64,000 nt of DNA from Sorangium cellulosum (GTDB lineage: Bacteria; Myxococcota_A; Polyangia; Polyangiales; Polyangiaceae). The notes under the pieces were generated by a model. The model had not been told where the DNA came from, made no database searches, and saw only the letters and a list, made by a program, of their open reading frames with translations. The stretch lies in assembly GCF_002950945.1 (NCBI RefSeq), contig NZ_CP012673.1:5455001-5519000 (forward strand), written 5' to 3'. Of this stretch, positions 26,972-48,109 are shown in pieces; the stretch's first letter is position 1; each line of letters starts with the position of its first letter. A program made the position numbers and the translations under genes.

Positions 26972-28714
26972 TTAAGACGCCCGGAGAGACAGCCGGTTTT
27001 TCCGTGCGGTTGCGGGGCGAGCCGAAGAAACGTTAACCATTTCAATCACTTCTGGATGTTCTGCCACCGCGCTAGGCGCCGGTGTGGCCCAACGCGGGCC
27101 CAACGCGGCCCGGTCGGCCGCCGCTTCGTCCTCTGCCGCGCAGGCAGCCGGTACATCTGCCGATGCCGGCATCTGGCCCTGAGGCGCGGCGCCGAGGGAG
27201 CCTCCGTCGCCCGCCGCCGCGGCCTCCGCTCCCCCCGACAGGCGAGCGCCTCCGACCGCTCGGCCCTGGCCGCGCAGCTCGGGGATCGCCTCATCAAGGG
27301 GCGCGAAGTCTCCCAAGCCGAGCTCCGCGACCTTACGTGCGGCGCGCTTGTAGTGGTGGATCTGGCTGCTCGACTTGTGCCCGGTCCGATCGGAGATCCA
27401 CGTCTCGGTGCGCCCGTTCGCTAGCTTGATGGTGATGAAGGTCGCGCGAGTGTCGTGCAAGCGAATGTTCAACCGAGATTCCGTGGTCTCGAACAGTTCA
27501 GGCCTTTCGATACCGGCGCAACGCAGGTGATTTCGAAAGCTATTCGCCCCATCACGACCGGGTAAGGGTAGCCCGCTTGGCCTAGAGAAAACACGCTCCT
27601 TTGGGGGACACATCGCAAAGTAGACGCGCAGCGCGCGCACGACATCGGGCGAGAGCGCCCACGCGCGCGGGTCATCGGTCTTGTTCTCGTCAAGAACTAT
27701 GGCGCCTCGCTCGAGATCCAGATCAGACGGCTCCAACCTGCCTGCTTCGTCTGCACGCATTCCCTCACGGATCAGAAACCCATAATAGATCCGATAAGAT
27801 AGTGGAATATCCACCGCGGCCATGAGGCGCCTATCCTCGTCGGGGTACAGAGAGCTTTTGGCCTTGTTGTTGTCCGCCTTGGGAATCCATCCACGTGGTA
27901 ACGGATTATTCGATATGATACGCGCCGGATAGGTCGCGAGCGCGAGTATTCGGTGAATAATTTTTGCGACGCCTTGACGCGAAGAGGCCCCAAGATGTGC
28001 CGGCAACATAGAGACTGCGCGATCCGCGTGGTCGACCGTGAAGCGAGGAAGAGGGACGGGGCCGAGCACTCCCAGAACATGATTCAGCTTATGTCGGTAC
28101 TGTTCCGGATGTCGAAGTGGTTTCACATGCAGCGGGTACTGGTCAGCAAGCTGGCCAGTTAGCACCCGCTCAGCGAACTCGGCGAAGGTGGTGTCCCCGG
28201 ATGAGCGGGGACGCGCCTCGCCCTTGCACAGCTGGTCGATCGCGAGCCGAACATCGCGGAGCGCGGTCCCCTCGCGCGCGGCAGCCTGCTCCAGCAGCGG
28301 CACGCCGACCACAACCTGCCCGGCGGCGAGCAGGCGCCCGGCGAACTCGGACAGCACCTCCAGCCGCCCGTTGGCTTCTTGCTCGGTCCGGCACGTCGGC
28401 AGGCTGAACGTGCATCGCCCGGCCTCGCCGAGGCTGAGGCGTGCGGTCCACGTCCTCCCGCGCAGCCGCACGGAGCCGGAGCCGTTGGCGCGCTTCTCTC
28501 CTGCTGCGCCGACTGCCGGCTTCGGGCGGTCCGTCGGGCTCGCCGGGCCCGGCAAACCCGCACCGGGCGCAGCTTTCTCCGTCGGCGGCGACGGGCGCCC
28601 GGCAGAGCGGCTCGAACGCGTCCGCCGGTCGGTCGATGTGGATGCGGAAGGGGGCGATGAAGGGACGGCAGGCGAGCGCTTGGCGCGCGCCCGCCGCTGC
28701 GGTACGTCGGTCAT
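26972..28714 (-). CDS. Tyrosine recombinase (site-specific integrase)
   Basis: A 580-residue phage-type integrase. After a low-complexity N-terminus, residues ~75-110 look like an arm-binding region (GSGSVRLRGRTWTARLSLG) and ~175-270 like a SAM-like core-binding domain. The catalytic residues are R320 (GMRADEAGRL), H420-x-x-R423 (LHDTRATF), a His in TGHKSSSQ, and nucleophile Y455 (HHYKR). A 125-residue Ala-rich tail follows. Start ATG 28714 (MTDVPQ). It defines an integrated element and is followed by an HTH gene; neither an attP core nor matching tRNA could be found next to it. Confidence 0.92.
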   Translation of the reverse strand: MTDVPQRRARAKRSPAVPSSPPSASTSTDRRTRSSRSAGRPSPPTEKAAPGAGLPGPASPTDRPKPAVGAAGEKRANGSGSVRLRGRTWTARLSLGEAGRCTFSLPTCRTEQEANGRLEVLSEFAGRLLAAGQVVVGVPLLEQAAAREGTALRDVRLAIDQLCKGEARPRSSGDTTFAEFAERVLTGQLADQYPLHVKPLRHPEQYRHKLNHVLGVLGPVPLPRFTVDHADRAVSMLPAHLGASSRQGVAKIIHRILALATYPARIISNNPLPRGWIPKADNNKAKSSLYPDEDRRLMAAVDIPLSYRIYYGFLIREGMRADEAGRLEPSDLDLERGAIVLDENKTDDPRAWALSPDVVRALRVYFAMCPPKERVFSRPSGLPLPGRDGANSFRNHLRCAGIERPELFETTESRLNIRLHDTRATFITIKLANGRTETWISDRTGHKSSSQIHHYKRAARKVAELGLGDFAPLDEAIPELRGQGRAVGGARLSGGAEAAAAGDGGSLGAAPQGQMPASADVPAACAAEDEAAADRAALGPRWATPAPSAVAEHPEVIEMVNVSSARPATARKNRLSLRAS

Positions 28715-28784
28715 GGATCGGTCTCCGGTGATGCGGGGGTCGATCAAGGGCTCGTCCGGCGTGCTACCGCCGAGCGAGCCCGCT

Positions 28785-29312
28785 CTACTTCGGCGGCAGC
28801 CTACCACGGCTTGCACGTTCAGGAGGGGCGCTAGCTCGGCCGGTGCGCGAGCATCGGACAGGTTCGAGACCGGCAGCAGCCAGGACGGCCGCAACCCGCG
28901 TGCGCTCGTCCTCCTCTGCGGCGCTGCGCGACGCCGGCTCCTCGGCCAGCGCCAGCAGGTAGGCGACGAACGCTTCGCGCGAGACCAGGCGCAGCTTGCC
29001 GAGCTTCGTGACCGGCAGGGGGAAGCCCGGTGCGCGGATCGTGTCGAGGAAGACACGCGCCGGGATGCCGGTGACTGCCTCGACGTTCTTCTGCGAGAGC
29101 GTCTCCGGCGGCGCCGCCGTGATCGTGAGCCCGTCCAGCGGGATCGCGAGCGTCGCGGTGGCCGTCGCCGTCGCGGGCTGGTCGGTCACCTTGCGGCCGA
29201 ACCGTCCGCCGGCGGGTGTCTCGAGGACCTGAGCCTGGACGGCGAGCATGCCGCTGTCCGCCTGACGCAGAGCAAGCTGTGTCGATGCACGCGCGAGCGC
29301 TGCTCGTGCCAT
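28785..29312 (-). CDS. HTH protein, possible excisionase or regulator
   Basis: A 175-residue protein whose central segment (LSQKNVEAVTGIPARVFLDT, then LPVTKLGKLRLVSREAFVAYL) has the shape of an excisionase/MerR-like winged helix that reads a promoter or attachment site. The N-terminal third is Ala/Thr-rich and the C-terminus is basic. ATG 29312 has GGAGGTAAGG upstream. It is immediately upstream of and cotranscribed with the recombinase (70-bp gap), the usual position for a directionality factor. HTH assignment is by pattern only. Confidence 0.72.
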   Translation of the reverse strand: MARAALARASTQLALRQADSGMLAVQAQVLETPAGGRFGRKVTDQPATATATATLAIPLDGLTITAAPPETLSQKNVEAVTGIPARVFLDTIRAPGFPLPVTKLGKLRLVSREAFVAYLLALAEEPASRSAAEEDERTRVAAVLAAAGLEPVRCSRTGRASAPPERASRGRLPPK

Positions 29313-30767: not shown

Positions 30768-30965
30768 CTACAGCCGTCGCGCTCGCGCCCGGCGCGGCTG
30801 CACCGGTGCGCGCTTCTTCGGCGCTGCCTTCCGCTTCCGCGGCTTCTGCCGCACCTTCTGCACTCGCACGCGCGACTTGATGCCTGACGCAGCCCGTAGC
30901 ACGCGCTCCAGCCGCGTCGGCGGAATCAGCGCGTCGAACATAAGCCGCAGTCTGACCGGGTCCAC
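30768..30965 (-). CDS. Small basic protein, last gene of phage-like operon
   Basis: A 65-residue product: an N-terminal amphipathic half (DPVRLRLMFDALIPPTRLERVLRAA) and a strongly basic C-terminal half rich in Lys, Arg and Pro. It begins 3 bp after the preceding stop, so it is part of the operon. The basic tail suggests nucleic-acid binding. Not recognised. Confidence 0.6.
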   Translation of the reverse strand: MDPVRLRLMFDALIPPTRLERVLRAASGIKSRVRVQKVRQKPRKRKAAPKKRAPVQPRRARARRL

Positions 30966-30968
30966 CGG

Positions 30969-31613
30969 TCACCTCTTGCGGCGCGACGGCGCGCGCTTCT
31001 TCGGCGCCTTCTGGGGCTTCCTCGTCGTGAGGAGGCGCTTCACGTCCCGCACTTCGCGCTCCAGAGCGGACTCCGCCTTCGCCGGGCGGCAGACGTAGGT
31101 CACCCCCCGCACCACGCGCGGCCCGCGCTTGGGCGCCGTCGCGCGCGCCTTCCGCGGGGCTCTCTTCCTCGCCGGCTTCGGCGCCTCGGGGGCCGCGCGT
31201 GCGGTTCGGGTGCGCACCTTCGCGGCGCGCGCCGTCGGCGTCACCTCGACGGCCCTCGGCGTGTTCGCCTTCCGCGCGGTGCTGCGCTTCCGCGGCGTGC
31301 TCCGCTCGGGCGTGCGCCTCGGCCGCACGGTGGTAGTCGTCGCGCGCTCCGTGGTCGTGCGCCTCGGCACCACCGGCCACCCGGCAAGCGGCCTGCTCCC
31401 CGCTAACACCAGCCCGCGGCCCGGCGCCCCAGGCGTTCCCGCCGGCAGGAGCAGCGGCGCCGGGCGCCCTGGCGGCAGACGGAGCGGCCGCGCCGGGAGC
31501 TCGTTCACCTCGGCCTGCACTTCGATCGCGCGCCCGCGGCGGGGCTTGCCCTTGCCCTTCCGGCGGCGTTTCCCGCCTCCCTCCACGTCTAGCAACGACA
31601 TTTGCTCCTTCAT
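30969..31613 (-). CDS. Highly basic Lys/Arg/Ala protein, histone-H1-like
   Basis: A 214-residue protein of extreme basicity. A KRRRKGKGKPRRGR patch lies near residue 18, a Pro/Leu-rich middle follows, then ~100 residues dominated by Arg, Lys, Thr, Ala and Pro (for example RKRAPRKARATAPKRG), resembling the C-terminal tails of histone H1/HU-like or phage internal DNA-condensing proteins. ATG 31613 overlaps the upstream stop (ATGA). In a putative virion operon this is the most likely DNA-binding component; function inferred from composition only. Confidence 0.75.
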   Translation of the reverse strand: MKEQMSLLDVEGGGKRRRKGKGKPRRGRAIEVQAEVNELPARPLRLPPGRPAPLLLPAGTPGAPGRGLVLAGSRPLAGWPVVPRRTTTERATTTTVRPRRTPERSTPRKRSTARKANTPRAVEVTPTARAAKVRTRTARAAPEAPKPARKRAPRKARATAPKRGPRVVRGVTYVCRPAKAESALEREVRDVKRLLTTRKPQKAPKKRAPSRRKR

Positions 31614-32557
31614 GACGCCTCCTCGGCTCCACTGATCCCTTCGAACCAGGGCCGCACGAGGGCGGCCCACACCTTCGGCGCGAGCTCGGTCGCGTGCCCC
31701 GCGTGGCTGTAGCGGGCGCCGTAGTCGAGCAGGTGCACGCCGCCGCCTCCCCAGCTGCGCTCCGGCGCGGGCAGGCCCGCCAATGCTTCCTCGCCGAGGC
31801 GCACCCGACCGCCGAGCGCGCGCGCGATTGCGGCCAAGGTCTGCGCCCCGGTCGGGTGCTGCTTGTTTGGCGCGCTGCTCGCCGTGGCCAGGAACAGGCG
31901 CGCGCCGCCCGCCGCCTCGGCCGCGTAGTCCACGAGCGACCCGATCGGCGCCGCGAGCTCGTGCGCGCGGTCGGTCCACTCCGTCGTGTAGGTCGCGTCC
32001 GCGAGCACCACGGCCGCGACTTCGGCCCGGTCGCGCGGGTGGGCGAGCAGGCGCTTGACGATGTGCCCGCCGGCCGAGAAGGCTGCGACCACCAGCGGCC
32101 CCGCCGGCAGTCCGAGCGCGCGCCGGCAGCCCGGAAGGCGCCTCCCGTCGCCATCGAGCCAGCTGTCCGCGATCTGGCTGCACGAGGGCGAGCCGTCGCC
32201 CGTACATGTCCGGTGCACCACGGGCACGCCCGCGAGCTCGGCGCCCGCGACCTGCGCCGAGCTCACGGGCCCGAGCCACGCGACGGCTACGGGACGCGGC
32301 CGCACATGGACAGAGCTCGTTCGCCCGGACGGCTCACTCGCGCCCGGCGTGTCCTGGCCCCGGCTCTTCGCGATGACAGTGCCGATCACGCCCGCTGCGA
32401 ACGCAACTCCCCCCACGGCGACTTTGACTCGATGGCGCGCGAGCTCGTGCGCGGTCGCAGGTGAGACGCCGAGGGCGCGGAAGCGACGGGACCAGGTATC
32501 GATCGCCCGCGCCTCGCGGGTCGTGTGCGGCGGCGGCAGCGGCGCGAAGCGCGTCAC
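31610..32557 (-). CDS. Membrane-anchored alpha/beta-hydrolase-like protein
   Basis: A 315-residue protein with one transmembrane helix (residues ~45-63) followed by an extracytoplasmic domain of ~250 residues. The nucleophile motif F-S161-A-G-G sits after a hydrophobic strand (GPLVVAAF), a VVLADATY strand supplies a possible Asp, and YSHAGHATEL near residue 287 a possible His, consistent with a serine hydrolase triad. The GTG start and the ATGA at its end both overlap neighbours by 4 bp. It may cleave lipid or cell-wall esters during entry or exit of the element. Confidence 0.8.
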   Translation of the reverse strand: MTRFAPLPPPHTTREARAIDTWSRRFRALGVSPATAHELARHRVKVAVGGVAFAAGVIGTVIAKSRGQDTPGASEPSGRTSSVHVRPRPVAVAWLGPVSSAQVAGAELAGVPVVHRTCTGDGSPSCSQIADSWLDGDGRRLPGCRRALGLPAGPLVVAAFSAGGHIVKRLLAHPRDRAEVAAVVLADATYTTEWTDRAHELAAPIGSLVDYAAEAAGGARLFLATASSAPNKQHPTGAQTLAAIARALGGRVRLGEEALAGLPAPERSWGGGGVHLLDYGARYSHAGHATELAPKVWAALVRPWFEGISGAEEAS

Positions 32558-33093
32558 CGCGGCCTCCGCTTGCGCCGCGTGGCCTCGACCACCCGGTGCA
32601 CTCCGTAGAGGGTGAGTCCTCCCGCCGCGGCCCCGGCGCCGAGCTGCACGCCCCGTGGCAGGCCCTTGAACGCCTGGACCGCGCCCTTCGCCAGGTCGGG
32701 CAGGGTGTTCGGGCCGATCACCGACGGCGGAATCCCCACGGCCGTTGCAGCGCGGCTCACCGCCGCCGCCGCCTTCAGTGGCCCGGTAGCGTCTTCGATG
32801 CTCGGGACCCGCACCTGCGGGCCGCCGCCGGCGAAACCCTTCTCGCGCGCGTACTCCTCGGCCACCTTGAGATCGGCCGACATCGCCGACAGCGCGGTCA
32901 CGTCCTCGTCGCCGGCCTCCCACTTCGCCGAGAACTCCCGCCACGCGTCGAGTTGAAAGCGGACGTTCGGGAGCTTGTCCACCACGCCCCAGGCGAGGAG
33001 GGCATCCCAGCGCCGCCGCAACTCGACGTAGGTCTCCTTTGCCTCCTGCGAGACCCACCACGCGCCAACATCACCCTCTTCGTTGTTCCTCAT
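32554..33093 (-). CDS. Unknown protein with C-terminal hydrophobic segment
   Basis: A 179-residue protein not recognised. The N-terminal ~85 residues are helical and Trp-rich (GAWWVSQEAKETYVELRRRW). The C-terminal third has a Gly/Ala-rich hydrophobic stretch (VQLGAGAAAGGLTLYGVH) ending in a basic cluster, suggestive of a membrane helix. ATG 33093 overlaps the upstream stop by 4 bp (ATGA), and its own stop overlaps the next GTG. Confidence 0.8.
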   Translation of the reverse strand: MRNNEEGDVGAWWVSQEAKETYVELRRRWDALLAWGVVDKLPNVRFQLDAWREFSAKWEAGDEDVTALSAMSADLKVAEEYAREKGFAGGGPQVRVPSIEDATGPLKAAAAVSRAATAVGIPPSVIGPNTLPDLAKGAVQAFKGLPRGVQLGAGAAAGGLTLYGVHRVVEATRRKRRPR

Positions 33094-34922
33094 CGCAGCA
33101 CCTCCACGAGCCACGGCGGCAACGCGCCGCCGAGAAGCAGTTCCGAGCCCCGCGCGAGCTCGTCCACCAGGTCGATCGCCTCGCCGTCCCGCGTCGCTTG
33201 GCGGTGCACCGGCGCCCAGAGCTGAGACCAGTCCTTGTGCGCGTCGTCATGCGCGTGGCCCGGCCGCTGCCACACGGCGCCGCCCTCACGCCGCAGGCCG
33301 TAGTTCACCGCCTGTCGTTCCTTGAGCTGCGGCTCGAGGATCCACTCCTTCCACGGGCCATCCAGGAGCGCGGCGGACTTCGGCCCGATCCGCTTGCTCC
33401 ACTCGCGCGCCTGCGCCTCGAGCGTGGGGAAGCGTTCTAGCAGGGCAGGTAAGCCAGGGGGGCCGAGCGGTGCGAGCACCACCCGCCGCGCCGCGGCCTG
33501 CCAGCGCGCGTCGCAGATCGCACGCGTCGGCGGAAGGTAGTGCGACGTCCGGCAGAGCTCGAGCACCTCGCGGAACGTGACCGGCAGCCGCACGCCCCGC
33601 ACGCTCAGCGCGTCGGTGGCGACGCGCAGCCGGTACGGGCCGAGCTCCAGCTCGGTCCAGTACACGTTGTCCACGAGCCCCTCTTTCCACCCCTCCACCA
33701 CGCTCGGCAGCGGCAGGGCGGCCGGCGCTCCGGCCACCGCGCTGCCCGCGTCGGGCAGCGCCCACGGGCGCTCGGCGTTGCGGGCGCCGGCGCGGATCGA
33801 CACGTGAAGGTGGCGCGTGTGCGGGTTCGTCCCGTCGTACGGACGCCACGCGCCGCCCTGGATCTGGCGGTTCGCGATGCGCTTGTTCCAGATCACGTAC
33901 GTCACGCGCGGGTCGGCGAGCAGCCGCTCAGCGAGCGCGTCGAGGTCGGGGCCCCGTTCTGGATCGTGCGTCACGTCGAGCGCGTTGCCCTCGTTGTGGT
34001 CGCTCTTCCTCGCCTGGTGCGCGGCGTCGCCCAGGAGGCCGTCGCTCGCGCGGCTCCGGCCAGGCCAGCGCTCGTTGAGCTGGCGCACGAGGGCCCGGAG
34101 CGCCGGGGCCACCTGCGCAGGTGGTGCCGGTGGCGGACCGGAGACCTGGGGCGCAGGGCGCGCGTTCTGCGCGGCAGGCGTCGGAGCGTCGACCAGCTGT
34201 CCTCCGATCGTGACCCACTTGCCCTTCGCGCGGCCCTCGACATCGCGCACGACACGCTCGACGTCAGCCCACGTGAAGAAGCCTTTTTTCTCGTTCGCGT
34301 TCGGGTGGTCGAAGCCTGGGTTCGCGGCGTAGACCGCGCCCTTAGTCAAGGTGACGCCAGGCACCACGGGCTCTTTGCTGTCCCGCACCGCGATCTGAGC
34401 GTCGAGCGGCAGGCCCACGGCGGCGGGCAGGAAGTTCCGCTTGTACACGTCGAACGCGCTCCATGACGGCGAGCGCCCCGCGAGCCGAGCGAAGTAGGGG
34501 CGCACGAGTTCGCGCAGCTGTCGCTCCGCGCTCCACGTGCGCGCAGCCCACACGCGCTCGGGCGTGTCGAGCCCCGGCAGGCCTGCGCGCTCGGTCACCT
34601 GGTTCAGTCCCGCGCGCGGCGTCCCCGTGGCCAAGCGCGGCGCGCCCGGATCCCAGCCGCTCTCGAGCTCGATCACGGTCGCGAGCGCCGCTGGCGACAG
34701 ATTGAGCTCGGAGGCGACCTCCAAGAGCGTCGTGCGCACCGCGGGCGTCGCGCTCACCAGCCCGCGGTAGGCCGGCGCGACGGGCGTGCTTTCGTCGGCC
34801 GCACTGTCCGGCGTGCCCGCGCCGAGAGCACGCCGCGCCCGGTGCCGGACGTACGCCAGCCCCGCCGGAAGCCCGGCGGAGGCCACGTAGCCCAGGCCGA
34901 CGAGGATCGTCAGCGGTTCCAC
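33090..34922 (-). CDS. Two-headed cell-wall hydrolase (lytic transglycosylase + M15-like)
   Basis: A 610-residue protein. A membrane helix at residues ~3-25 precedes a lytic-transglycosylase-like domain with catalytic E85/E87 region ATVIELESGWDP and a GLNQVT block. Residues ~280-385 form an M15-type peptidase: the zinc motif SxHxxGxAxD is exact at S307, H309, G312, A314 and D316, and the second ligand pair is RHLHVS near residue 372. A C-terminal ~200-residue domain (DALSVRGVRLPVT...QAVNYGLRREG) is of a type I have seen in other bacterial proteins but cannot name. Virion-associated or membrane-tethered wall hydrolases with this plan serve entry or assembly in phages. GTG 34922 start. Confidence 0.88.
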   Translation of the reverse strand: MEPLTILVGLGYVASAGLPAGLAYVRHRARRALGAGTPDSAADESTPVAPAYRGLVSATPAVRTTLLEVASELNLSPAALATVIELESGWDPGAPRLATGTPRAGLNQVTERAGLPGLDTPERVWAARTWSAERQLRELVRPYFARLAGRSPSWSAFDVYKRNFLPAAVGLPLDAQIAVRDSKEPVVPGVTLTKGAVYAANPGFDHPNANEKKGFFTWADVERVVRDVEGRAKGKWVTIGGQLVDAPTPAAQNARPAPQVSGPPPAPPAQVAPALRALVRQLNERWPGRSRASDGLLGDAAHQARKSDHNEGNALDVTHDPERGPDLDALAERLLADPRVTYVIWNKRIANRQIQGGAWRPYDGTNPHTRHLHVSIRAGARNAERPWALPDAGSAVAGAPAALPLPSVVEGWKEGLVDNVYWTELELGPYRLRVATDALSVRGVRLPVTFREVLELCRTSHYLPPTRAICDARWQAAARRVVLAPLGPPGLPALLERFPTLEAQAREWSKRIGPKSAALLDGPWKEWILEPQLKERQAVNYGLRREGGAVWQRPGHAHDDAHKDWSQLWAPVHRQATRDGEAIDLVDELARGSELLLGGALPPWLVEVLR

Positions 34923-35311
34923 AGCGCCCGCGCCCGCGTCCAGAACTCGCGCACCCGCGGCGCCACCTCTCGCCCGAAGCGCAAAACGTCCGCGACCAGG
35001 GCCGCGGCCTCCGGATCGAGGTGCGCCGTCGGCAGGCCTCCGTAGAACGCCGGGACCTCAACCGGCGGCTTCGGCGCCGCTGCCTCGGGCGCGCGGGCGC
35101 GCTCGTCGCTCTCCTTGCCCTTGCGCCCCTCCCGGCTCGTCTGCGGCTCGCGGGTCTCCTGCTTCACCTGCGGCGCCTTGGCGGCGCCGTGCGCCTCCGT
35201 GGACTCGCTGTTCGCACGGTGCTTGTCGACCTCCTCGACCGTGCCGCAGCTCGCACACATGCGGTGACCGTTCACGAACGTTTGCGGCCCACTGCACACA
35301 GAACACATCAT
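34910..35311 (-). CDS. Zinc-ribbon protein with hydrophilic linker
   Basis: A 133-residue protein. The N-terminus is a four-Cys zinc ribbon (C4-x2-C7 and C19-x2-C22: CSVC and CASC). A ~65-residue highly charged, probably disordered linker follows, then a ~40-residue helical domain (PEAAALVADVLRFGREVAPRVREFWTRARALW). ATG 35311 has AAGGAAGG upstream. It overlaps the start of the wall hydrolase by 13 bp. Function unknown. Confidence 0.8.
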   Translation of the reverse strand: MMCSVCSGPQTFVNGHRMCASCGTVEEVDKHRANSESTEAHGAAKAPQVKQETREPQTSREGRKGKESDERARAPEAAAPKPPVEVPAFYGGLPTAHLDPEAAALVADVLRFGREVAPRVREFWTRARALWNR

Positions 35312-35347
35312 GGGTTCACCTTCCTTCGGTCTTCTCTTCGACGCGTC

Positions 35348-35890
35348 TCAAAGCATCGTCCCGGACTGCCAGTAACCTTGAGCGTTGATCTCCGACTCCG
35401 GCGCGAGCCCGACGGGGTAAATCACGTTCGGCGTGAGCGCGTAGTCGCCTAGCGTCATCTGGCCGGTGATCAGCCGGAAGTGGCTAACGAAGGGCGGAAA
35501 GCGCAACGCCTGCTCTTTCTCGTAGAAGTGGGTCAGCCAGAAGGCCTGCGGCTCGTTCCACACGCCTGTCTCGTCTTCTGCCGACCACACGTTTACCTCC
35601 CACCTGCCAACTCCCCCCTTCAGATACAGATCGCCGCCCGTGCGGAGGTAGTAAGCACCGCAGCCGCTCCAGAGCTCGACACGCCCTGAAGGCGCCGCAA
35701 CCGCCTCGACCGCGAACGCACCCGTGCGCGGGAGTACCCAGCGACAGTGCAGCGCGTGGCCCTCGCCGTTGAAGGCTCCGCCCCGAGTCGTCTTGCGCGC
35801 GTGCACCCAGACGCGCACGGGCCGGCACCACGACCTGACAAATAGCGGCTGCTGGTTCAGCGCTGCGTCTTCGATGACTACCGGGCCCAT
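35348..35890 (-). CDS. Beta-rich unknown protein, possible structural subunit
   Basis: A 180-residue protein predicted to be nearly all beta by eye, alternating hydrophobic and polar residues (LFVRSWCRPVRVWVHARKT, GHALHCRWVLPRTGAFAVEAV, GDLYLKGGVGRWEVNVWS). It has no signal peptide or enzyme motif. The size and pattern would suit a jelly-roll or spike-like protein. It lies 4 bp downstream of the preceding gene in the same operon. Assignment as a virion protein is speculative. Confidence 0.8.
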   Translation of the reverse strand: MGPVVIEDAALNQQPLFVRSWCRPVRVWVHARKTTRGGAFNGEGHALHCRWVLPRTGAFAVEAVAAPSGRVELWSGCGAYYLRTGGDLYLKGGVGRWEVNVWSAEDETGVWNEPQAFWLTHFYEKEQALRFPPFVSHFRLITGQMTLGDYALTPNVIYPVGLAPESEINAQGYWQSGTML

Positions 35891-35893
35891 GGC

Positions 35894-36358
35894 TCACCTG
35901 ATCGCGCACGTTCCAGGGCAGCCGACGCGCTGGGCGATCCCCTCGACGTCTTCCGCCCACCCCTCGAAGTCGAACGGGCCGAAATAGTCGTCCAACGCGT
36001 CCTCCTCCTCGCGCTCGACCTGGACGCGGCGCCGCGGCGCGCGCTCGGGCGCGGGAGCGGCTTCCGTGGGAGCTGTCTGCGTCGGCTGAGCCGGTGCAGG
36101 CGGGGCCGGTGCAGCGGGAGCCGGCGCCGACGGAGCTGCGTTCGGCCGCGCATCCTCGATCGGCAGGCGGTAGTTGAGCTTGCGCAGCGCCACCGCCGCC
36201 GCGAGCAGCCGCGCGCGATCCGCGGGCGCCGGATCCTGGGCCGCTGGGGTCGCGAGTCGACGCCGGATCGCGCGCTGCACCTTCGGGTCGGGGCTCGACA
36301 CGGCGGCGAGCGCTGCGTGGGCCTTGGCCTGCTCCGAAGCCCGCGGAGCCGCTTTCAT
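35894..36358 (-). CDS. Unknown protein with Ala/Pro-rich linker
   Basis: A 154-residue protein: an N-terminal helical domain of ~70 residues (AHAALAAVSSPDPKVQRAIRRRL...LLAAAVALRKLNYRLP), a Pro/Ala-rich linker, then an acidic C-terminus (DALDDYFGPFDFEGWAEDVEG). No recognisable family. Encoded 6 bp downstream of the peptidase-like gene. Confidence 0.78.
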   Translation of the reverse strand: MKAAPRASEQAKAHAALAAVSSPDPKVQRAIRRRLATPAAQDPAPADRARLLAAAVALRKLNYRLPIEDARPNAAPSAPAPAAPAPPAPAQPTQTAPTEAAPAPERAPRRRVQVEREEEDALDDYFGPFDFEGWAEDVEGIAQRVGCPGTCAIR

Positions 36359-36364
36359 CGCCTG

Positions 36365-37411
36365 CTACGCGGCCGCGTGGACCGCCGTTGCGTCGTTCCG
36401 CTTCGGGTCCTTCGGGTGCGGGCGCCTGGCCTTCTTGGCCGCCTTCTCAGCCTCCGCGACCGCCGTCGCGACCGCACCTGTGGCGGCCGCTACGCCAGCT
36501 CCTGCGGCGGGCGTCGCGACCGCGCCGACGACCACCGACGCGACGGTGCCCACCGCGCGCACGACGTCGTCCCAGAAGCCCACGTCTTCGGCGTCCTCGG
36601 GCACCGCAGCGCGCCCGGGTTCCTCGAGCTCGCCGCCCTCCTCGTCGCCCGTGCCCGCCACGGCGCCCTCGCCCCGCTCAGCCGCGTCGAGCGCGGCCAG
36701 CGCCGCCTGCCGCAACTCCTCCGCCTCGGCAGGCGGCAGCGTCGCCGATACGCGCTCGACCTCCGCAAGCACCTCCTGGTGGATGGCCTCTTGCTCGCTT
36801 CGCGCGAGGGCCGCCAGGGGTACGTTGACGCTGCGCAGGGCCAGGCGCGCCGCCTCGCCCCCACGGCCCGCGGCGCGCCGGACCGCCGCACTGAGGCGCA
36901 CCGCGGCGGGCGGCCGGATCTGGGAACGCGCCGCCCCGTCGTACGCGCTCGGCGGCGGCTTCGGCATGCCGCCCTTCACGCTCGGGTCGTCGACTCGGCC
37001 CGCGTCGTCGATGAGGAAGACGTGAAAGCCGCGGCCATTGGGCACACGCACGCAGCCCACCCAGCGGCCCCGGTGCCCGCCGGCCGCCCGCGTCAGCCCG
37101 TCGCAGTCGTCGCCGCCCTTGTGCTCCACCTCCTCCGGCGCCGCGAAGTAGTCGCCCCCCTTGTCGGGCGTGTACTTCAGGCCCTTGAGCGAGACCTTGA
37201 CCCCGCGCCGCAGGTCCCCGCGGATGAGCGCTGCCAGGACGTCCGCGATCGCCTGCGGATCGCGCGGGATGGAGACGGTGGGCCGAATGCCGGCACCACG
37301 GCGAATCGCCTCCAGCCTGCGCGCGCTCTCCTTCATGTCGACTGCTGCCCCACCGCTCACGTCGTCTGGCTGAGGCGCAGCGTCCTCGTCGCGCCAGTCA
37401 TCTTGCAGCAT
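36365..37411 (-). CDS. Transglutaminase/papain-like cysteine peptidase-like protein
   Basis: A 348-residue protein. Residues ~50-145 match the transglutaminase-like core found in phage structural operons: DPQAIADVL, then GGDDC103DG (catalytic Cys), RGFH130VFL (His) and VDDPS (Asp141/142). The C-terminal 200 residues are Ala-rich helical with a possible membrane segment (VGTVASVVVGAVATPAAGAGVAAATGAVATAVA) and a basic end. ATG 37411 has GGAGG at 9 nt. In tailed and other phages such domains act in head maturation or as wall peptidases; the exact role here is inferred. Confidence 0.84.
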   Translation of the reverse strand: MLQDDWRDEDAAPQPDDVSGGAAVDMKESARRLEAIRRGAGIRPTVSIPRDPQAIADVLAALIRGDLRRGVKVSLKGLKYTPDKGGDYFAAPEEVEHKGGDDCDGLTRAAGGHRGRWVGCVRVPNGRGFHVFLIDDAGRVDDPSVKGGMPKPPPSAYDGAARSQIRPPAAVRLSAAVRRAAGRGGEAARLALRSVNVPLAALARSEQEAIHQEVLAEVERVSATLPPAEAEELRQAALAALDAAERGEGAVAGTGDEEGGELEEPGRAAVPEDAEDVGFWDDVVRAVGTVASVVVGAVATPAAGAGVAAATGAVATAVAEAEKAAKKARRPHPKDPKRNDATAVHAAA

Positions 37412-37461
37412 CGCTGTTGCCCTCCGTATCCGCCCTCGGCCCTGCCGCGCCCCTCAGCCGC

Positions 37462-38295
37462 TCACTTGAACAGCTTGAACCGCGGCCGCGCCTTCGGTGC
37501 GAGCGACCGACGGCGCTTCGCGGCGCTGAGCAGCTCACGGGTGAGGCCCCGGAAGTCGAGCTCTCCCACGCCCGGCATGAAGATCCGACCCGTCGAGCAC
37601 TGCCGCTCGAAGTAGAGCAGCGTAATCCCGTAGAACGGCATTGCGGGCGCAGTGGCCGGCGCGTCAAGGTAGACGGAGCAGGTAAACTCCGTGTCGTCAC
37701 CGAAAGACTTGCCGATGAGCGAAGCGAGGGGCGTGTCCTTGGTCACGAGCTCCGTGCGGAACTGCGTCAGCGAGATGTCCTGGGGATAGGCCTTGGCCCG
37801 GTCGTCGCTGAACCCGAGCGAGCCACCCACGATGCAGAAGCGCTGGGCGCAGTCGACGGGATCGGTGCGCACGCCGAAAAAGGTCATCGTCCGGGTGAAC
37901 TTGAACGGCGTCGCCTGGCGTGCGCCGTTAACCCGCGGCCGCAGATCGTAGACCTGCCCCCCTTGGCACGGGGTACCCCGGTCCGTCGCGTAGAGCGTGA
38001 CCGAGCTGTTCGGACGCTGCTCGGCTGCGACGAGCCTCGTCGCGCCCACCGTCGCGTACGCCTTCTCCAGCGCTGTGTTCGCCTTCGCGAGCTTGCGCGA
38101 AAGGGACTGCGCCACGTCTCTGCTGACGCCCGCTTTGCGCTGGATGTACGCCCCTACCTCGTCCTCGTCGGCCAGGAGCAGCCCTTCCACCTCGTCGTCG
38201 TCCTCGTCGTCGAGAACCTCGGCGATGCCCTCCACCGCATCGTCGAATCGCACACCGATGGCTTCGTACGTCTCTTCCAGATCCTTGTCTCTCAT
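37462..38295 (-). CDS. Beta-rich protein, candidate capsid/structural protein
   Basis: A 277-residue protein. The N-terminal ~80 residues are acidic and helical (FDDAVEGIAEVLDDEDDDEVEG), the rest mostly beta (SSVTLYATDRGT, PFKFTRTMTFFGVRT, CIVGGSLGFSDDRAK, ITLLYFERQ) ending in a basic tail. No enzyme motif. ATG 38295 overlaps the upstream stop (ATGA). Size, acidic N-terminal scaffold-like segment and beta-rich body would fit a coat protein, but there is no detectable homology by eye. Confidence 0.84.
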   Translation of the reverse strand: MRDKDLEETYEAIGVRFDDAVEGIAEVLDDEDDDEVEGLLLADEDEVGAYIQRKAGVSRDVAQSLSRKLAKANTALEKAYATVGATRLVAAEQRPNSSVTLYATDRGTPCQGGQVYDLRPRVNGARQATPFKFTRTMTFFGVRTDPVDCAQRFCIVGGSLGFSDDRAKAYPQDISLTQFRTELVTKDTPLASLIGKSFGDDTEFTCSVYLDAPATAPAMPFYGITLLYFERQCSTGRIFMPGVGELDFRGLTRELLSAAKRRRSLAPKARPRFKLFK

Positions 38296-38831
38296 GCCGT
38301 GCCTCCGAGGCCCGCGGCCCAGTCGACCACCGCGAGCCAGTCCTCTGTCCCCACGCGCGCCTGGAGGCGCGCGCACAGCTCTTCGTCCTCCAGCACCTTG
38401 TCCAGCGCTCGCCTTAAGGGGGCGAGCTTCGGATCTGCTGTGCCCCCCGGCAGCATCGATGCGACGCGCTCAAGGGGCACCTGGAGCACCTTGTACATCT
38501 GGACGTCGCGATCCCGAGAAGCTTTGAGCCGCTCGATCGCGATCTCCTTCTGACCCTGTACGATGGCGAGCGAGGCATTGGTCGCTGCCGACTTGGTAAG
38601 GAGCTCGTTGGCGGCCTCCAAACGGTCGTAGAGTGCAGCGATCCTTTCGTCCCTCTCCTTGATCGCAGCCTCGCGAGCCTGCACCGTTCTTTCTAGCGCG
38701 TCGATCTGCGCGCGCGCGTCCGATGCCCCGCGGCTGTACGCTGCCGCGAGTTCCCCCGTCAGGAGGTGAACGTCGACGTTCATCGTCTGCTGCGTGACGA
38801 CGGACGACGAGTTGCGCGCTTTGCCGGGCAC
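38292..38831 (-). CDS. Coiled-coil protein, possible scaffold
   Basis: A 179-residue protein with a long coiled coil (residues ~40-110: ALERTVQAREAAIKERDERI, ALYDRLEAANELL) and a helical C-terminal domain. GTG 38831 start, 2 bp after the preceding stop; its stop overlaps the next ATG. Coiled-coil proteins encoded directly upstream of coat proteins are often scaffolding proteins, which is the reason for the suggestion. Confidence 0.83.
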   Translation of the reverse strand: MPGKARNSSSVVTQQTMNVDVHLLTGELAAAYSRGASDARAQIDALERTVQAREAAIKERDERIAALYDRLEAANELLTKSAATNASLAIVQGQKEIAIERLKASRDRDVQMYKVLQVPLERVASMLPGGTADPKLAPLRRALDKVLEDEELCARLQARVGTEDWLAVVDWAAGLGGTA

Positions 38832-38833
38832 GA

Positions 38834-39256
38834 CTACGCCTTCTCGCCGTTACGTCCGCGCTTCGGCTCTTCTGCAGGCCCCGTGCGCTGCTCGGCGCGG
38901 CGGCGCTCCGCCTCTGCCTTGTGCTTCAGGCCCATCGCGCGGCCCGCGTTCGCGCTGATCGCGTTCGTGGCCCCGATCGCTGCCGCACGACAGATTGCCC
39001 GCACGCCCGGGTTCTCGTCGCCGGCGAGCACGGCTCCGAGGCCGCTGACCGCGGCCACCGCGACCTTGACCGTGTCGCCGTCATTGTGCCGCGCATCGGC
39101 GTAGGCCACGCTGCCCGCGATGACGTTGGTGAGCGGGACTTCGATGGCGAGCGGAAGAGCCTCGTTGGCCTGCGCCTCTTCCAGGGCGACGACGAGATCG
39201 GCTTTGGATGCGCTCGACAGGGCGGCATCCGTGGGAAGCGAAAGAGTACCGGCCAT
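38834..39256 (-). CDS. First gene of phage-like operon, small helical protein
   Basis: A 140-residue protein. ATG 39256 has AAGGAGG at 6-nt spacing; the TTG two codons upstream is rejected. The central segment (VAYADARHNDGDTVKVAVAAVSGLGAVLAGDENPGVRAICRAAAIGATNAIS) is Ala/Gly-rich and moderately hydrophobic, and the C-terminus is highly charged. It heads the operon just downstream of the palindromic operator, and its strong ribosome site suggests abundant synthesis, as expected of a structural or regulatory protein. Not recognised. Confidence 0.84.
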   Translation of the reverse strand: MAGTLSLPTDAALSSASKADLVVALEEAQANEALPLAIEVPLTNVIAGSVAYADARHNDGDTVKVAVAAVSGLGAVLAGDENPGVRAICRAAAIGATNAISANAGRAMGLKHKAEAERRRAEQRTGPAEEPKRGRNGEKA

Positions 39257-39335: not shown

Positions 39336-39374
39336 TTGTACTCTACGGGTGGTGTACTCTACCGTAGAGTACAC
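39336..39374. promoter_or_regulatory. Palindromic operator with extra half-site
   Basis: GTGTACTCTAC, then C, then GTAGAGTACAC form a perfect 11-bp inverted repeat at 39352-39374. A further half-site GTACTCTAC lies at 39338-39346, 16 bp from the same word in the palindrome, and a third copy with one mismatch (GTACTCCAC) is at 39455-39463 inside the plus-strand gene. It sits between the divergent starts of the 12-gene operon and the gene at 39432. This is a textbook arrangement for cooperative repressor binding controlling both directions. Confidence 0.78.
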
Positions 39375-39431: not shown

Positions 39432-39833
39432 ATGCCGAACCGTCGCGATAAAATGTACTCCACAGCGGTTGCCTGGGTACGGTCGGATCCGCGCGTACGG
39501 GCGCCCCTCAGCCGCTCTCTCAGGAGCGACTACCGGCGGATTGCTGCGCTCGGGGACACCTGGGGGGGTGCCCTCGATGCGCTGGGCGCGCCGTACTACC
39601 TGGTCAGGTGGGTCGCCGGCCCCGGGCTGAGGGATGTCGAGGAGCGTGAGCGCCGCTACCGCGCCGCGTGCGAGGCACTCCGGCGCGAGGTGCCGTGGAC
39701 CCTGGCCGCTTGGCGCGCGCTGAAGGCCACCGAGCGACCGATTCGGCCCGCGGCTCCGAGGCACAGGCTGCGGGCGCTGTCGGTTTCTGTCGAGCCGACA
39801 CCGCCGGCCTACTCCGATTCCGGAGCGTCCTGA
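39432..39833 (+). CDS. Basic protein divergent from phage-like operon
   Basis: A 133-residue basic protein (MPNRRDKMYST...). It is helical, with segments VAWVRSDPRVRAPLSRSLRSDYRRI and DVEERERRYRAACEALRREVPWTLAAWRALK. It has no HTH I can identify with confidence, but its position, alone and divergent across the operator, is that of a regulator. ATG 39432 follows a strong extended -10 box; no ribosome site is evident, so a near-leaderless message is likely. Confidence 0.68.
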   Translation: MPNRRDKMYSTAVAWVRSDPRVRAPLSRSLRSDYRRIAALGDTWGGALDALGAPYYLVRWVAGPGLRDVEERERRYRAACEALRREVPWTLAAWRALKATERPIRPAAPRHRLRALSVSVEPTPPAYSDSGAS

Positions 39834-40073
39834 CAGAGCCGCTGCGACGTTGATCGAGCAGGCGCAACTGGCCGCTGTAGCGAGCCCGGAACGATGCCCG
39901 GCGAGGCGGCTCGTACGAGGACCGATGCCCTTTACGCTCAACCGTAGGCGACTGTGTGTACATCGGCCCTCTTATCGCCCATAACAATCGGGCACGTCCC
40001 GACTAGGCCCCGCCTGCTGTTATGGAGGATCCTCTTATGGGTAGGATGCCCGTTGCTGAAGAAGGGTGAGCAC

Positions 40074-41351
40074 ATGACGAAAACCACTACGAGCTGGCTG
40101 CGCGGTTCCCATGCGCTGGCAGCAGCCGTGATCACGATTAACCTGGGTGCTTGTGCGTCTTTTCCGGACGATGAGGAAGATGTCGGTATCGATCAGTCCG
40201 CGGTTGAAGGCGTGCATACAGAGATCGATGGCGTTCATACCTGGGCACACTTCACAAACCCATCCGGGAACGAAGACCTGAAAATCATAAATCATCTGAT
40301 CCAGCTAATCAAAGACACTCCCTCGAATGAAACGATTCAGGCGGCTGTTCACAGTCTAAACATTAGGGAGGTTTACAAGGCACTGGAAGAGGCCAAGCAA
40401 AAAGGTGTGAACATCCAGGTAGTACACAACGGCGCCGATCAGCTTCACAAACCCGGTAAGCCCTGGGAGACAGAGGACAAGTTCCCAGACAAACTGCATC
40501 TCCGACTCGGAGAGCGCGATGGCCAGAACGACGAAACATTTCATATCTTCTGCGGAGAAAACAAAAATAAGCAAAATCGTGCCGCAAACCATGGGTGCAT
40601 CACGAAGGCAAAGAGTGGAATGATGCACGCTAAGTTCTTCGTCTTCAGCAAGACGATTGTCGAAGATGGTGCTGGGGCGCTCGACGTGCGCGACAATGTA
40701 GTATGGTTCGGCTCGTCGAACCTGACTCATCACTCCGCAAAAACGTTCAACAACGCGATCACAATCTATGGAGATGCTGACCTGTACCTCGGGTTCGTTG
40801 GTTATTTTGGCGATCTTGTCGATCTGAACAAGTCTAAGCACAAGCACGTAGAACACCCCGACTACTACAACGACGAGATAACCCCAAAGAAGGGATTCTG
40901 GAAGTCGGGCTCTGGCAAAGTACGGGTCTATGCGTCACCCGAGAGAGACGGCAATCTAGTACTGAGACAGCTGAAGAAGATCAAAGCAGAATTAGGATGC
41001 AAGGTGCATGTAGCTCAGGCAATGATTACCGATGTTGACCTGGTCAATCGCCTGATAAAACTGTCGCAAGACGGATGCACAGTGAAGGTGGCTACAACAA
41101 AGAGAACGAAAGTCGTGAAGAAGCTCAAGAGGAACAATATCTCCGTAAAGATAAACAAAGACATTCACGACAAGAGCATTCTTGTATACGCCAGATTTAA
41201 TTCGCCAGAATTTCGTTATTTTGTATTTACTGGTTCACACAACTGGGTTCCTTCGGCGGACAACAAGAATGACGAGATTCTCGTGAGGCTGGAGAGCGAG
41301 AGCCTCTACTATGCCTACCGCGACCATTTCTACAGATCATACAACGATTAG
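40074..41351 (+). CDS. Phospholipase D-family lipoprotein
   Basis: A 425-residue exported enzyme. The ATG at 40074 (AAGGGTGAG upstream) gives a signal peptide with lipobox LGAC. Two HKD motifs are visible: H185-A-K187 (MMHAKFFVF, with GSSNLT after it) and H365-D-K367 (IHDKSILV, with FTGSHNW), so a complete PLD active site can form within one chain. Base composition is close to 50% GC by eye, far below its surroundings, with AT-rich codons (AAA, ATA, AAT) used freely: a clear sign of recent transfer. It could be a secreted phospholipase or nuclease used against prey or competitors. Confidence 0.93.
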   Translation: MTKTTTSWLRGSHALAAAVITINLGACASFPDDEEDVGIDQSAVEGVHTEIDGVHTWAHFTNPSGNEDLKIINHLIQLIKDTPSNETIQAAVHSLNIREVYKALEEAKQKGVNIQVVHNGADQLHKPGKPWETEDKFPDKLHLRLGERDGQNDETFHIFCGENKNKQNRAANHGCITKAKSGMMHAKFFVFSKTIVEDGAGALDVRDNVVWFGSSNLTHHSAKTFNNAITIYGDADLYLGFVGYFGDLVDLNKSKHKHVEHPDYYNDEITPKKGFWKSGSGKVRVYASPERDGNLVLRQLKKIKAELGCKVHVAQAMITDVDLVNRLIKLSQDGCTVKVATTKRTKVVKKLKRNNISVKINKDIHDKSILVYARFNSPEFRYFVFTGSHNWVPSADNKNDEILVRLESESLYYAYRDHFYRSYND

Positions 41352-41830
41352 CATGTGTCTCCCTGTCGTCGTTTACCGCGCGATCCGCTCAATGAAGAGC
41401 TGTCGCGATCATCTCCGTCCGCGTCGGGCGATGACGATGTGGATGGCCGCGCGAACGGCTGGACGAGTTGCTGCCCGCCGCCTGGGCGCGAGCGCCTCTC
41501 GCGGCTCCGGCCGCTGGCGACGCCGACGCCTCCTGAGCGACGCGGACCTCGATCTTCGACGCCGGCGGGGCAGAGCACCTCGCCGGCCCCTCTTGTGCCC
41601 GCCCGGGTCCGACCGGGCCGTGGGCAGGCGCTGCCCCGCGCCCAGCATCGTCGACCCCGGCGAGCGCCGCAACTGGCCACGACCATGGCGATGGGTGGGC
41701 GGTTACGCTGTAGCGACACTACTGACGGCGTCATGACGCGATCATGACGGGGACCAGCGCGGCGCTGGACACGGCGGAGGGCGCTCGGGGCCGCGTTCGA
41801 AAAATCGGCGAGGAGGCGAGTGCGCCGCCT
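41352..41830. other. 479-bp gap without a supported gene
   Basis: Convergent spacer between the PLD gene and the first Gly-rich lipoprotein. Several frames stay open across it in both directions, but they are Arg/Pro-rich, mutually overlapping and without homology or ribosome sites. GC content returns to the genome norm right after the PLD stop. Confidence 0.45.
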
Positions 41831-43354: not shown

Positions 43355-43484
43355 GGTTCTTCCTCGACGTTGCGCGACACGGTTCGAAACGCTCAACGGG
43401 GTGGTCCAGAATCGGAAGATGGAATCAAACGTAAGGCATAAACTGGCCATGGGCTCCCGTGGCGATGTGGTGCTTGCGCCGCTA

Positions 43485-45041: not shown

Positions 45042-45078
45042 GGGCATCCCTCGATGGCCGGGTGTCGCGCGGCGCGAT

Positions 45079-46749: not shown

Positions 46750-47873
46750 AGCCCCTCGATGTGCGCACCGATTTCGTTGCTCGTCGCCACGGGCGAGACA
46801 CGGATCCGATCCCGAGCGGGCGAGAGTCCCAGGAAGGAGAAGTCCGTGAAGAAGGAAGCGGCAGTCACCGCGCCGACCACACCGCCCGTGATGACCATGG
46901 CCACGCCCGCGCGGCCGGACAGGTTGCGCGCGTCTTGCAGCCGCGCAAGCTCGGCACATGGCGAGTTCGGAGGCGCGCGCCAGCACGTCGACGAACTCGA
47001 AGACGGCTCGCCCAGGAGCCGGTTACGCCGGGCGGTCAGGTCGTCGTCGAGCCTGCCCGCCCGAATCATGAGGATGGTGCCGATCGACGCGCCGGCCGTC
47101 GCAGCGGCGATCCCTGTGACGCGCAGCGTCCCCGGCCAGGAAGCCCACGGGTCGGGCTCTTTCGCGCGTGCAGTGGGCACAACGCGCGCGGTCTTCGGCA
47201 CCGCCGGGGCCTCCTTGGAGCTGCTCACCGCCGGGCCCGGAAGCTTCATCGAGATCTCCTGCTTATCACCCGGCTCGCCGTTGAACGCGTGAAAGCCATC
47301 CTCGCGACCCGGCGCCCGGGCCCGCACCATGTGTCGTCCGGGCTCGAGGAACAGCTTGTAGGTCCGCGCGGTCCGACCGATCTTCTGGCCGTCGATGAGG
47401 ATCTCGGCGTCCGGCGGGTCGACGGAGAGCACGAGCTCAACGACGTAAAACGCGGCCTTCCGCTGGCCGTTCAGGAATCGTTCTTGAAAATGAGCCGGCA
47501 GCGCCCAATCCCGCTCAAGACTCCAGGTCAGGTGCTCCGCCGCGTCACGGTACTTACGCAGCTCGAGCTCGCAGAGGCCGAGTTCACCGGCGATCTCGGC
47601 GGGATCGAACGCCCCGCGGTCGACTTCGGCGCGGTCGAGCTTCATGCCGGGCGGCACGTTTGCGGCATCAAGGGCCGCCTTGTAGGCTTCGTAGGCCTCC
47701 GTCCAGTTGCCGCGGTCGCGGGCTTTCCGAGCACGGCGAACAAGGTCCTTCACCGTCAACCCGTCGCTTCTCCCCGAGGCCGGAGACCGCTGCTGAGCAT
47801 CGGCCGAGCTGACCAAGCCCGTTGAAGCGCCAAGCGTAAGCAAAATGAAAAACAGGTGCGCACCGCAACGCAT
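46743..47873 (-). CDS. PEGA-domain secreted protein with TPR-like region
   Basis: A 376-residue exported protein. ATG 47873 is preferred because it gives a clean signal peptide (MRCGAHLFFILLTLGAS...SADAQ). Residues ~35-130 look like a TPR/tetratricopeptide unit (RRARKARDRGNWTEAYEAYKAAL, LGLCELELRKYRDAAEHLTWSL). A PEGA domain follows (VELVLSVDPPDAEILIDGQKIGRT...LEPGRHMVRARAPG). Two hydrophobic helices near the end (VTGIAAATAGASIGTILMI and VAMVITGGVVGAVTAASFF) place it in a membrane. This architecture is common in myxobacteria. It is divergent from the sigma factor at 48110 and coupled to lipoprotein 3. Confidence 0.87.
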   Translation of the reverse strand: MRCGAHLFFILLTLGASTGLVSSADAQQRSPASGRSDGLTVKDLVRRARKARDRGNWTEAYEAYKAALDAANVPPGMKLDRAEVDRGAFDPAEIAGELGLCELELRKYRDAAEHLTWSLERDWALPAHFQERFLNGQRKAAFYVVELVLSVDPPDAEILIDGQKIGRTARTYKLFLEPGRHMVRARAPGREDGFHAFNGEPGDKQEISMKLPGPAVSSSKEAPAVPKTARVVPTARAKEPDPWASWPGTLRVTGIAAATAGASIGTILMIRAGRLDDDLTARRNRLLGEPSSSSSTCWRAPPNSPCAELARLQDARNLSGRAGVAMVITGGVVGAVTAASFFTDFSFLGLSPARDRIRVSPVATSNEIGAHIEGLW

Positions 47874-48017
47874 GCAGCGACGGTACTTACGCCGAGCACG
47901 CGACGTCAACCGGAAGAAAATGCTGGAAAGCAGCGCTTTAGGAGAGAATTCTCAGGAGAATGGCGGAATCGAGTCATCCGTCCCATGTGTCGGCGATCTT
48001 CCAGCCGACCCGGGTGA

Positions 48018-48040: not shown

Positions 48041-48109
48041 GTCCGACCAAAATGATCACGGCCGTGCATTTTGCTGACCCCGAGGGGGTCGCTCAGACGT
48101 GCTACCCGC

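Follow-up and report, generated by a model that had tools for sequence, protein, structure and literature searches.

In a 64,000-nucleotide stretch of the Sorangium cellulosum chromosome (NZ_CP012673.1, positions 5,455,001 to 5,519,000; hereafter the window, to which coordinates refer unless stated), twelve open reading frames (ORFs) form an operon that we read, with moderate confidence, as the particle-building module of integrated mobile elements of the Polyangiaceae. These elements would be proviruses or satellites, and their particles would be tailless, membrane-containing and of a new group. The elements carrying this operon and its relatives form one family of mobile DNA integrated into the chromosome, and the module that they share is conserved and under selection. 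An earlier note on this DNA had proposed a phage-like operon that represents a satellite, a tailless membrane-containing virus or a domesticated particle. The sporadic distribution, the targeting of tRNA genes, an empty site, the lack of conserved chromosomal synteny and the presence of integrases and attachment (att) repeats strongly support the mobile, phage-like part of this proposal, and the tailless, membrane-containing part is favoured rather than proven.

Seven related cassettes were found, all of them in Polyangiaceae (Sorangium and Polyangium), and homology and gene order are common to them. Clade A consists of the window cassette and two further copies. Copy 2 lies at 7.28 Mb of the same genome (G000, a single contig of 14,557,589 bp), where BLAST matches nine cassette proteins in the same order, with 57% identity for the hydrolase (62% in the alignment), 56% for the alpha/beta-hydrolase-like protein and 30-46% for the others, the homologue of the 277-residue protein being 40% identical. 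Copy 3, in Polyangium fumosum DSM 14668 (G435), has a hydrolase of 44% identity, a transglutaminase-like protein and a homologue of the 277-residue protein. The four clade-B loci are among the more distant relatives that a profile of the hydrolase C-terminal domain (A5) detected in Polyangiaceae. They lie in the genome G445, which we take by inference as S. cellulosum So0157-2 (locus L132), in G370 (L131) and in G436 (L129 and L130). Their gene order is glycine-rich protein, coiled coil, beta protein 1, transglutaminase-like protein, beta protein 2, hydrolase and membrane protein.

Among nearly identical clade-B cassettes of Polyangium the ratio of nonsynonymous to synonymous substitution rates (dN/dS) is 0.03-0.32 for seven genes, which indicates purifying selection; together with the nine proteins matched in copy 2 and the recurrence of the cassette in P. 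fumosum this takes the operon beyond chance. In L129 the dS of beta protein 2 is 1.1-1.2, compared with 0.1-0.3 in the preceding genes and 0.3-0.4 in the hydrolase. Because this value is far above that of the neighbouring genes, the beta protein 2 gene was exchanged, which is what a receptor-binding spike would show. Restriction-modification genes (type I and type IIG) adjoin clade-B cassettes at L131 12356-17970, L130 13241-16672 and L129 14721-17987, the last assigned by similarity to L130.

The description of twelve genes on one strand was borne out, as every ORF is present and nine of the products match the syntenic copy 2. All ORFs are on the minus strand, from 30768 to 39256 or 39262, and neighbouring ORFs are 2-50 bp apart or overlap by 4-25 bp. 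A divergent gene, called gene d here (39453-39833, plus strand), is the thirteenth of the unit. The operon genes, with the basis of each description in brackets, are:

30768..30965, minus: very basic 65-residue protein, net charge +20, which may belong with the next ORF (ORF, composition)
30969..31634, minus: basic histone-like protein of 221 residues, net charge +48 (ORF, composition)
31610..32503, minus: membrane-anchored alpha/beta-hydrolase-like protein, 297 residues (56% identical to copy 2; assigned by inspection)
32554..33093, minus: membrane protein with C-terminal hydrophobic segment and basic tail, 179 residues (homologues in copy 2 and clade B)
33090..34922, minus: N-terminally anchored cell-wall hydrolase with SLT-like, M15-like and conserved C-terminal domains, 610 residues (copy-2 homologue, domain matches)
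34910..35311, minus: zinc-ribbon protein, 133 residues (weak PF08271 match, C-x2-C pairs)
35348..35890, minus: beta-rich protein 2, candidate spike or minor capsid protein, 180 residues (kept in copies 2 and 3)
35894..36358, minus: C-terminal half of the transglutaminase-like protein, separate here, 154 residues (fused with the next ORF in copies 2 and 3)
36365..37411, minus: transglutaminase-like protein with a C-terminal transmembrane (TM) segment, 348 residues (triad, TM 283-302)
37462..38295, minus: beta-rich protein 1, candidate capsid or penton protein, 277 residues (clade-B homology, barrel model)
38292..38831, minus: coiled-coil protein, 179 residues (39% identical to copy 2)
38834..39256, minus: glycine-rich hydrophobic protein of about 140 residues, the first operon gene (homologue in copy 2)

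Several of these products are predicted to be membrane-bound. Of the three named as anchored in the earlier note, those starting at 31610 (TM 26-47) and 33090 (TM 4-24) have a TM segment, and the product of 36365 likewise has one at residues 283-302. The third, 32554, has a hydropathy below threshold in the window copy; by inspection, its homologues have a C-terminal hydrophobic segment followed by a basic tail. The hydrolase, described as a two-domain protein, does have SLT-like and M15-like parts, and a conserved C-terminal domain of unassigned type makes it three parts. The C-H-D triad of the transglutaminase-like protein was confirmed by inspection (C103, H130 and D141-142), and no Pfam model scores for this protein or for the alpha/beta-hydrolase-like protein. 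Its gene is split in the window, since the ORFs at 35894 and 36365 are a single ORF in copies 2 and 3. By inspection, both of these copies have zinc-ribbon ORFs in the equivalent position, and the C-terminal motif EVRDVKRLL of the histone-like protein resembles EVKDVKRIL in copy 2.

The window cassette lies on a genomic island. The flanks at 26953 and 60154 are adjacent in So0157-2, and the window therefore carries an insertion of 33.2 kb, with the following features:

26990..27004, plus: attL, 15-bp direct repeat CAGCCGGTTTTTCCG (identical copy at 60155-60169; matching core in the So0157-2 empty site)
60155..60169, plus: attR, 15-bp direct repeat (identical to attL)
26972..29056, minus: tyrosine recombinase, start codon uncertain (PF00589, E 5.2e-14)
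39876..60154, no strand: accessory part of the island with PLD-like and Gly-rich proteins, a PEGA/TPR protein, an extracytoplasmic function (ECF) sigma factor and IS21 (annotation)

The recombinase, noted as being next to the operon, is present about 1.7 kb downstream of it and adjoins one island end. It has 91.6% nucleotide identity to that of a sister island in So0157-2, which matches the recombinase side and 39111-39876 at 92% identity and does not have 29802-39110, the cassette. The sister island retains the N-terminal part of the first operon gene. Because this gene is complete in copy 2 and has a full-length positional counterpart in copy 3, the difference is a deletion in the sister island and not an insertion in the window. 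A further related island with the cassette deleted is present in the window genome at 1.7344-1.748 Mb (L160), where the recombinase is 69% identical, the N-terminus of the first operon gene remains and gene d is broken by stops. A tRNA-Val of 83 nt called at the empty site of So0157-2 appears to be spurious, and we disregarded it. The position 26072-26101 of the window is an integration hotspot, as the Sorangium genomes G444 and G447 carry different insertions there, about 870 bp from the window island.

The other cassettes are integrated at tRNA genes where the ends are resolved. Copy 2 has a tRNA-Leu(CAG) gene on one side and, on the other, 17 bp that repeat the 3' end of this gene; a recombinase-like protein of 658 residues adjoining the cassette is 30% identical to the copy-3 integrase. 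Copy 3 is also at a tRNA-Leu(CAG); its 17-bp repeat is at a distance of 24 kb, and its integrase matches PF00589. Since the flanking genes look alike by inspection, both copies are probably at the same chromosomal site. The clade-B element of G370 is delimited by 145-bp repeats covering part of a tRNA-Arg(TCT), 34.5 kb apart, with an integrase beside the element. The cassette on G436:C178 adjoins an integrase and a tRNA-Arg(TCT), which thus flanks two clade-B cassettes. A 15-bp tRNA-end match at G436:C178:29215, which would give a 12.9-kb element, is doubtful and was not used, because the sister element in G370 has the 145-bp repeat. Near the So0157-2 clade-B cassette no integrase was found by Pfam search.

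We searched 318 genomes of the class, 184 genomes of the order, IMG/VR, the INPHARED phages and a genome set of 84,980 species. The clade-A profile found only the three copies in the class genomes and the three copies with one chance match in the order genomes. With the clade-B profile its four copies and marginal matches were found, and the set of 84,980 species gave nothing beyond P. fumosum. Matches of the 277-residue profile in G340, G378, G402, G388, G416 and G447 had marginal E-values, and those inspected had no cassette neighbour, so they were taken as chance. None of the conserved chromosomal synteny that, according to the earlier note, would refute its reading was found.

These results bear on the possibility that the operon encodes a domesticated particle for gene transfer or predation, retained by the host. 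The purifying selection and the several decayed island relatives in the same genome would fit such a particle. The cassette is absent from nearly all relatives, however, its sites are variable and its integrases intact, and So0157-2 has both an empty site and a sister island from which the cassette is deleted; we therefore consider domestication very unlikely.

The candidate capsid protein is beta protein 1. A first model of the window protein, from an alignment of three sequences, was poor, and it was dropped and its fold searches discarded. In a second model, made from an alignment of all seven homologues headed by the So0157-2 member, a beta-barrel is predicted behind N-terminal helices of low confidence, and the domain at residues 70-190 has block means of the predicted local distance difference test (pLDDT) of 64-92, mostly 80-92. 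The clade-B proteins have 209-223 residues and a barrel of about 120 residues, modelled as a single barrel. Homology between the clades is supported by profile-to-profile comparison (hhalign E 5.8e-6, probability 85%), and three of the four clade-B proteins match the clade-A protein directly (E 1e-3 to 1e-4). A single beta-barrel is thus predicted for the family by way of the clade-B homologue. A double jelly-roll, the other capsid fold suggested for comparison, is unlikely, because the clade-B members are smaller than the smallest known double-jelly-roll major capsid protein (MCP) of 239 residues (PMC9719478).

When the barrel was re-aligned to PDB chains, the matches were jelly-roll-like proteins with Z of 5-6.5, and none stood out. 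The two longest alignments among the seven top matches are to virion proteins from archaeal viruses without tails: 6h82_b of HHIV-2 (Z 6.4, root-mean-square deviation (rmsd) 4.2, 114 residues) and, from SPV1, 6oj0_A (Z 5.8, rmsd 3.9, 115 residues). The former is probably the penton protein VP9, a single barrel with an N-terminal helix facing the membrane, because chain b begins at residue 43 and the first 40 residues of VP9 are disordered (PMC6414509). In a viral library the best match was D5L2E8 of an uncultured virus (E 6.8e-5). As the search tool cautions that Z below 8 may reflect merely a common arrangement, these matches support a jelly-roll fold and not a function, and are suggestive only. 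By sequence, the barrel protein had no relative in the viral, phage or PDB collections searched: it matches no phage record, and profile searches of PDB gave chance matches only.

The wall hydrolase is of phage type. Among the 10 of 12 window ORFs scanned against Pfam and PHROGs it gave the sole strong match, to the unnamed phage family phrog_32486 (E 5e-25), and its M15-like motifs are SDHNEGNALD at 307 and HTRHLH at 368. The first domain of the clade-B hydrolase resembles phage baseplate-hub transglycosylases (phrog_196, E 4.8e-13) and Klebsiella phage lytic transglycosylases (E 1e-11). The M15-like middle is common to genes of IMG/VR phage contigs, and no counterpart of it was found in the clade-B proteins. 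We rejected 63 IMG/VR contigs that match the hydrolase, as they match essentially the M15 part only; the best of them, L018, is an ordinary tailed phage, and L018-L080 had no significant relatives of beta protein 1, the transglutaminase-like protein or beta protein 2. At L134 9129-9323 (G446, Sorangium) a piece of the hydrolase C-terminus, with 79% identity to that of the window protein, remains as the trace of a lost cassette.

In the P. fumosum operon the glycine-rich and coiled-coil genes are separated by one for a CDP-alcohol phosphatidyltransferase (PF01066, 32.5 bits, cut-off 22), which fits the expectation for a membrane-containing particle. The P. fumosum element also has an ORF of 1607 residues with repeated CGARHASGLxC motifs and no Pfam match (L011 4961-9784).

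As in the earlier note, genes of tailed phages were not recognised: no significant head, capsid, tail, portal or terminase match was found with Pfam and PHROGs among the cassette proteins scanned, and the only tail-related match was the transglycosylase domain of the clade-B hydrolase. A decayed tailed prophage that has lost its head and tail genes would explain the adjoining integrase and the SLT domain, which is shared with tailed phages. It is strongly disfavoured and extremely unlikely, since the cassettes, without terminase, portal, HK97 capsid or tail genes, have nevertheless kept their order and selection.

The search for a packaging ATPase of the FtsK/HerA type was a scan for Walker A motifs in predicted genes. 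No such motif was found in the complete elements of copies 2 and 3, and the window island has them only in IstB of IS21 and, unconvincingly, in a Gly-rich protein. For a rolling-circle Rep there was no Pfam match among the ORFs scanned, which do not include every small ORF, and a DnaA-C-like gene in copy 2 is a weak match. The absence of an ATPase, which had been taken to argue against a complete tectivirus-like phage, thus stands as an observation. It does not exclude a complete virus, because viruses of the FLiP and Odin groups are likewise without one (PMC5894146, PMC7654751).

The same absence is the ground for regarding the elements as satellites, a subset of our explanation in which they have their own tailless coat and use a helper virus for replication and DNA packaging. 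In two complete elements, one of 19.7 kb and one of 24.3 kb, neither a replicase nor a packaging ATPase was recognised, and restriction genes are found near clade-B cassettes. No helper was identified, though, a small replication protein of unrecognised type could exist, and the FLiP and Odin groups lack the ATPase as well (PMC5894146, PMC7654751); we consider a satellite unlikely.

The strongest competitor is a non-viral envelope or antagonism device carried on genomic islands, with anchored wall-active proteins and beta-barrel adhesins and no encapsidated genome, which would aid the predatory myxobacterium or protect the element. It would account for the lack of ATPase, replicase and classical capsid genes and for the several single-TM or wall-active products. 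The hydrolase C-terminal domain is also present in shorter proteins elsewhere in Polyangiaceae, and some cassettes are near restriction-modification genes. Set against this are the sporadic distribution, the site-specific integration in each well-resolved copy, the basic proteins of DNA-condensing type, the phage-type SLT domain and a barrel with helical N-terminus that is, by coverage, most like virion proteins. We hold such a device to be rather unlikely, and rank an autonomous virus first, the device second and a satellite third.

For the particle-building module itself, we infer a tailless membrane-containing particle on the strength of the predicted barrel and the membrane proteins, of a wall hydrolase of phage type, of the phospholipid enzyme and of regulation that resembles a switch. 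Several points weigh against it. No packaging ATPase, known replicase or recognised capsid gene was found, there is no free relative in IMG/VR or among the INPHARED phages, and element sizes vary from about 20 to 35 kb. The window 277-residue protein itself was modelled poorly (pLDDT 48). The top PDB match overall is a plant protein domain (7vrr_B, HDT1) at Z 6.5, so a Z of 6 discriminates little; for a beta-barrel such a value is not decisive, as unrelated jelly-rolls score equally. The module is described here from its genes, and its particle is a prediction.

The regulation mentioned above would depend on gene d and the repeats beside it:

39453..39833, plus: gene d, which may encode the repressor of the operon (identity of 52-57% to copies 2 and 3 and of 23-27% to clade B)
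39352..39374, no strand: operator-like near-palindrome GTGTACTCTACCGTAGAGTACAC (further half-site at 39338)

Each of the three clade-A copies has operator-like repeats between gene d and the operon, and gene d is upstream and divergent in L130, L131 and L132. Because several further d-like genes of the window genome adjoin copies of the right-hand gene block of the island, repeated past integrations are suggested. A second d-like gene just past the right att repeat in G370 (G370:C20:678041-679161) suggests a tandem second element at the same tRNA-Arg.

In the integrated state, the gene d product would bind the palindromic operators in the shared promoter region and keep the operon silent, and on excision or stress the operon would be expressed as a single unit. 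The single-TM proteins and the coiled coil may then form a raft in the cytoplasmic membrane, where the single-barrel protein, anchored via its N-terminal helices, and beta-rich protein 2 would assemble into an icosahedral shell that encloses a membrane vesicle. The DNA would be condensed by the basic proteins, the transglutaminase-like protein might crosslink or trim the shell, and the membrane-anchored SLT/M15 hydrolase would open the peptidoglycan when the particle enters or leaves the cell. The functions for replication and packaging may be of unrecognised type, host-supplied or provided by a helper.

The accessory part of the island has features of its own. The PLD-like gene at 39954-41351 has a markedly lower GC content (0.60 at third codon positions, GC3) and is probably a recent acquisition. 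The Gly-rich proteins, PEGA/TPR protein and ECF sigma factor at 41831-49219 have many paralogous copies across Sorangium genomes, several of which adjoin d-like genes or decayed islands, and an IS21-type transposase with IstB is inserted at 53464-55795.

Among known systems, the Finnlakeviridae or FLiP group (FLiP, phiCjT23) shares with our elements the small, tailless, membrane-containing type of bacterial virus, here predicted from gene content. A single gene orientation and the lack of a packaging ATPase are common to both, and the transglycosylase of the FLiP virion has a possible counterpart in the predicted SLT-like domain (PMC7654751, PMC9719478). The group differs in its double jelly-roll MCP, where our elements have a predicted single barrel, and in the Rep-like rolling-circle gene of FLiP, for which no equivalent was found in our elements.

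The Sphaerolipoviridae, Simuloviridae and Matsushitaviridae (HHIV-2, HCIV-1, P23-77) have a single-barrel capsid or penton, two beta-rich proteins and many small membrane proteins, as the cassettes may have, and related proviruses sit between integrase and tRNA genes, as here (PMC5332951). They have an FtsK/HerA-type ATPase, not found here, their hosts are haloarchaea or Thermus, and no sequence similarity was detected. Single jelly-roll capsid proteins, usually two, are the trait of Helvetiavirae/Halopanivirales, and the HHIV-2 and SPV1 chains are tied in Z with unrelated jelly-rolls. SPV1 (Portogloboviridae), whose single jelly-roll protein is comparable to the barrel, is an archaeal virus without detected shared genes.

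Tectiviridae and Corticoviridae (PRD1, PM2) are tailless and membrane-containing with wall-active virion proteins; they differ by a double jelly-roll MCP and a packaging ATPase, neither of which was found here. Phage-inducible chromosomal islands (PICI) and P4-like satellites share the tRNA-targeted integrase, a similar size range and nearby restriction genes. They use the coat of the helper and are not known to carry a coat-type gene set like this one, and no helper-interference genes were recognised in our elements.

It is possible, and we put it forward tentatively, that the elements are a new lineage at family level or higher, temperate, tailless and membrane-containing, with a single-barrel capsid and no packaging ATPase, in mesophilic predatory soil Myxococcota. 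Standard phage detection would miss the module, since terminase, portal and ATPase genes and any recognised capsid gene are missing from it. With seven natural copies, two of them in one strain, it is directly testable. Single-barrel viruses known so far infect archaea and Thermus (PMC5332951) and bear on the origin of double-barrel capsids. If the module builds a particle, it would add a lineage of tailless membrane-containing viruses to the Myxococcota, where none was found in the literature searched, and would place a single-barrel coat in a mesophilic Gram-negative host.

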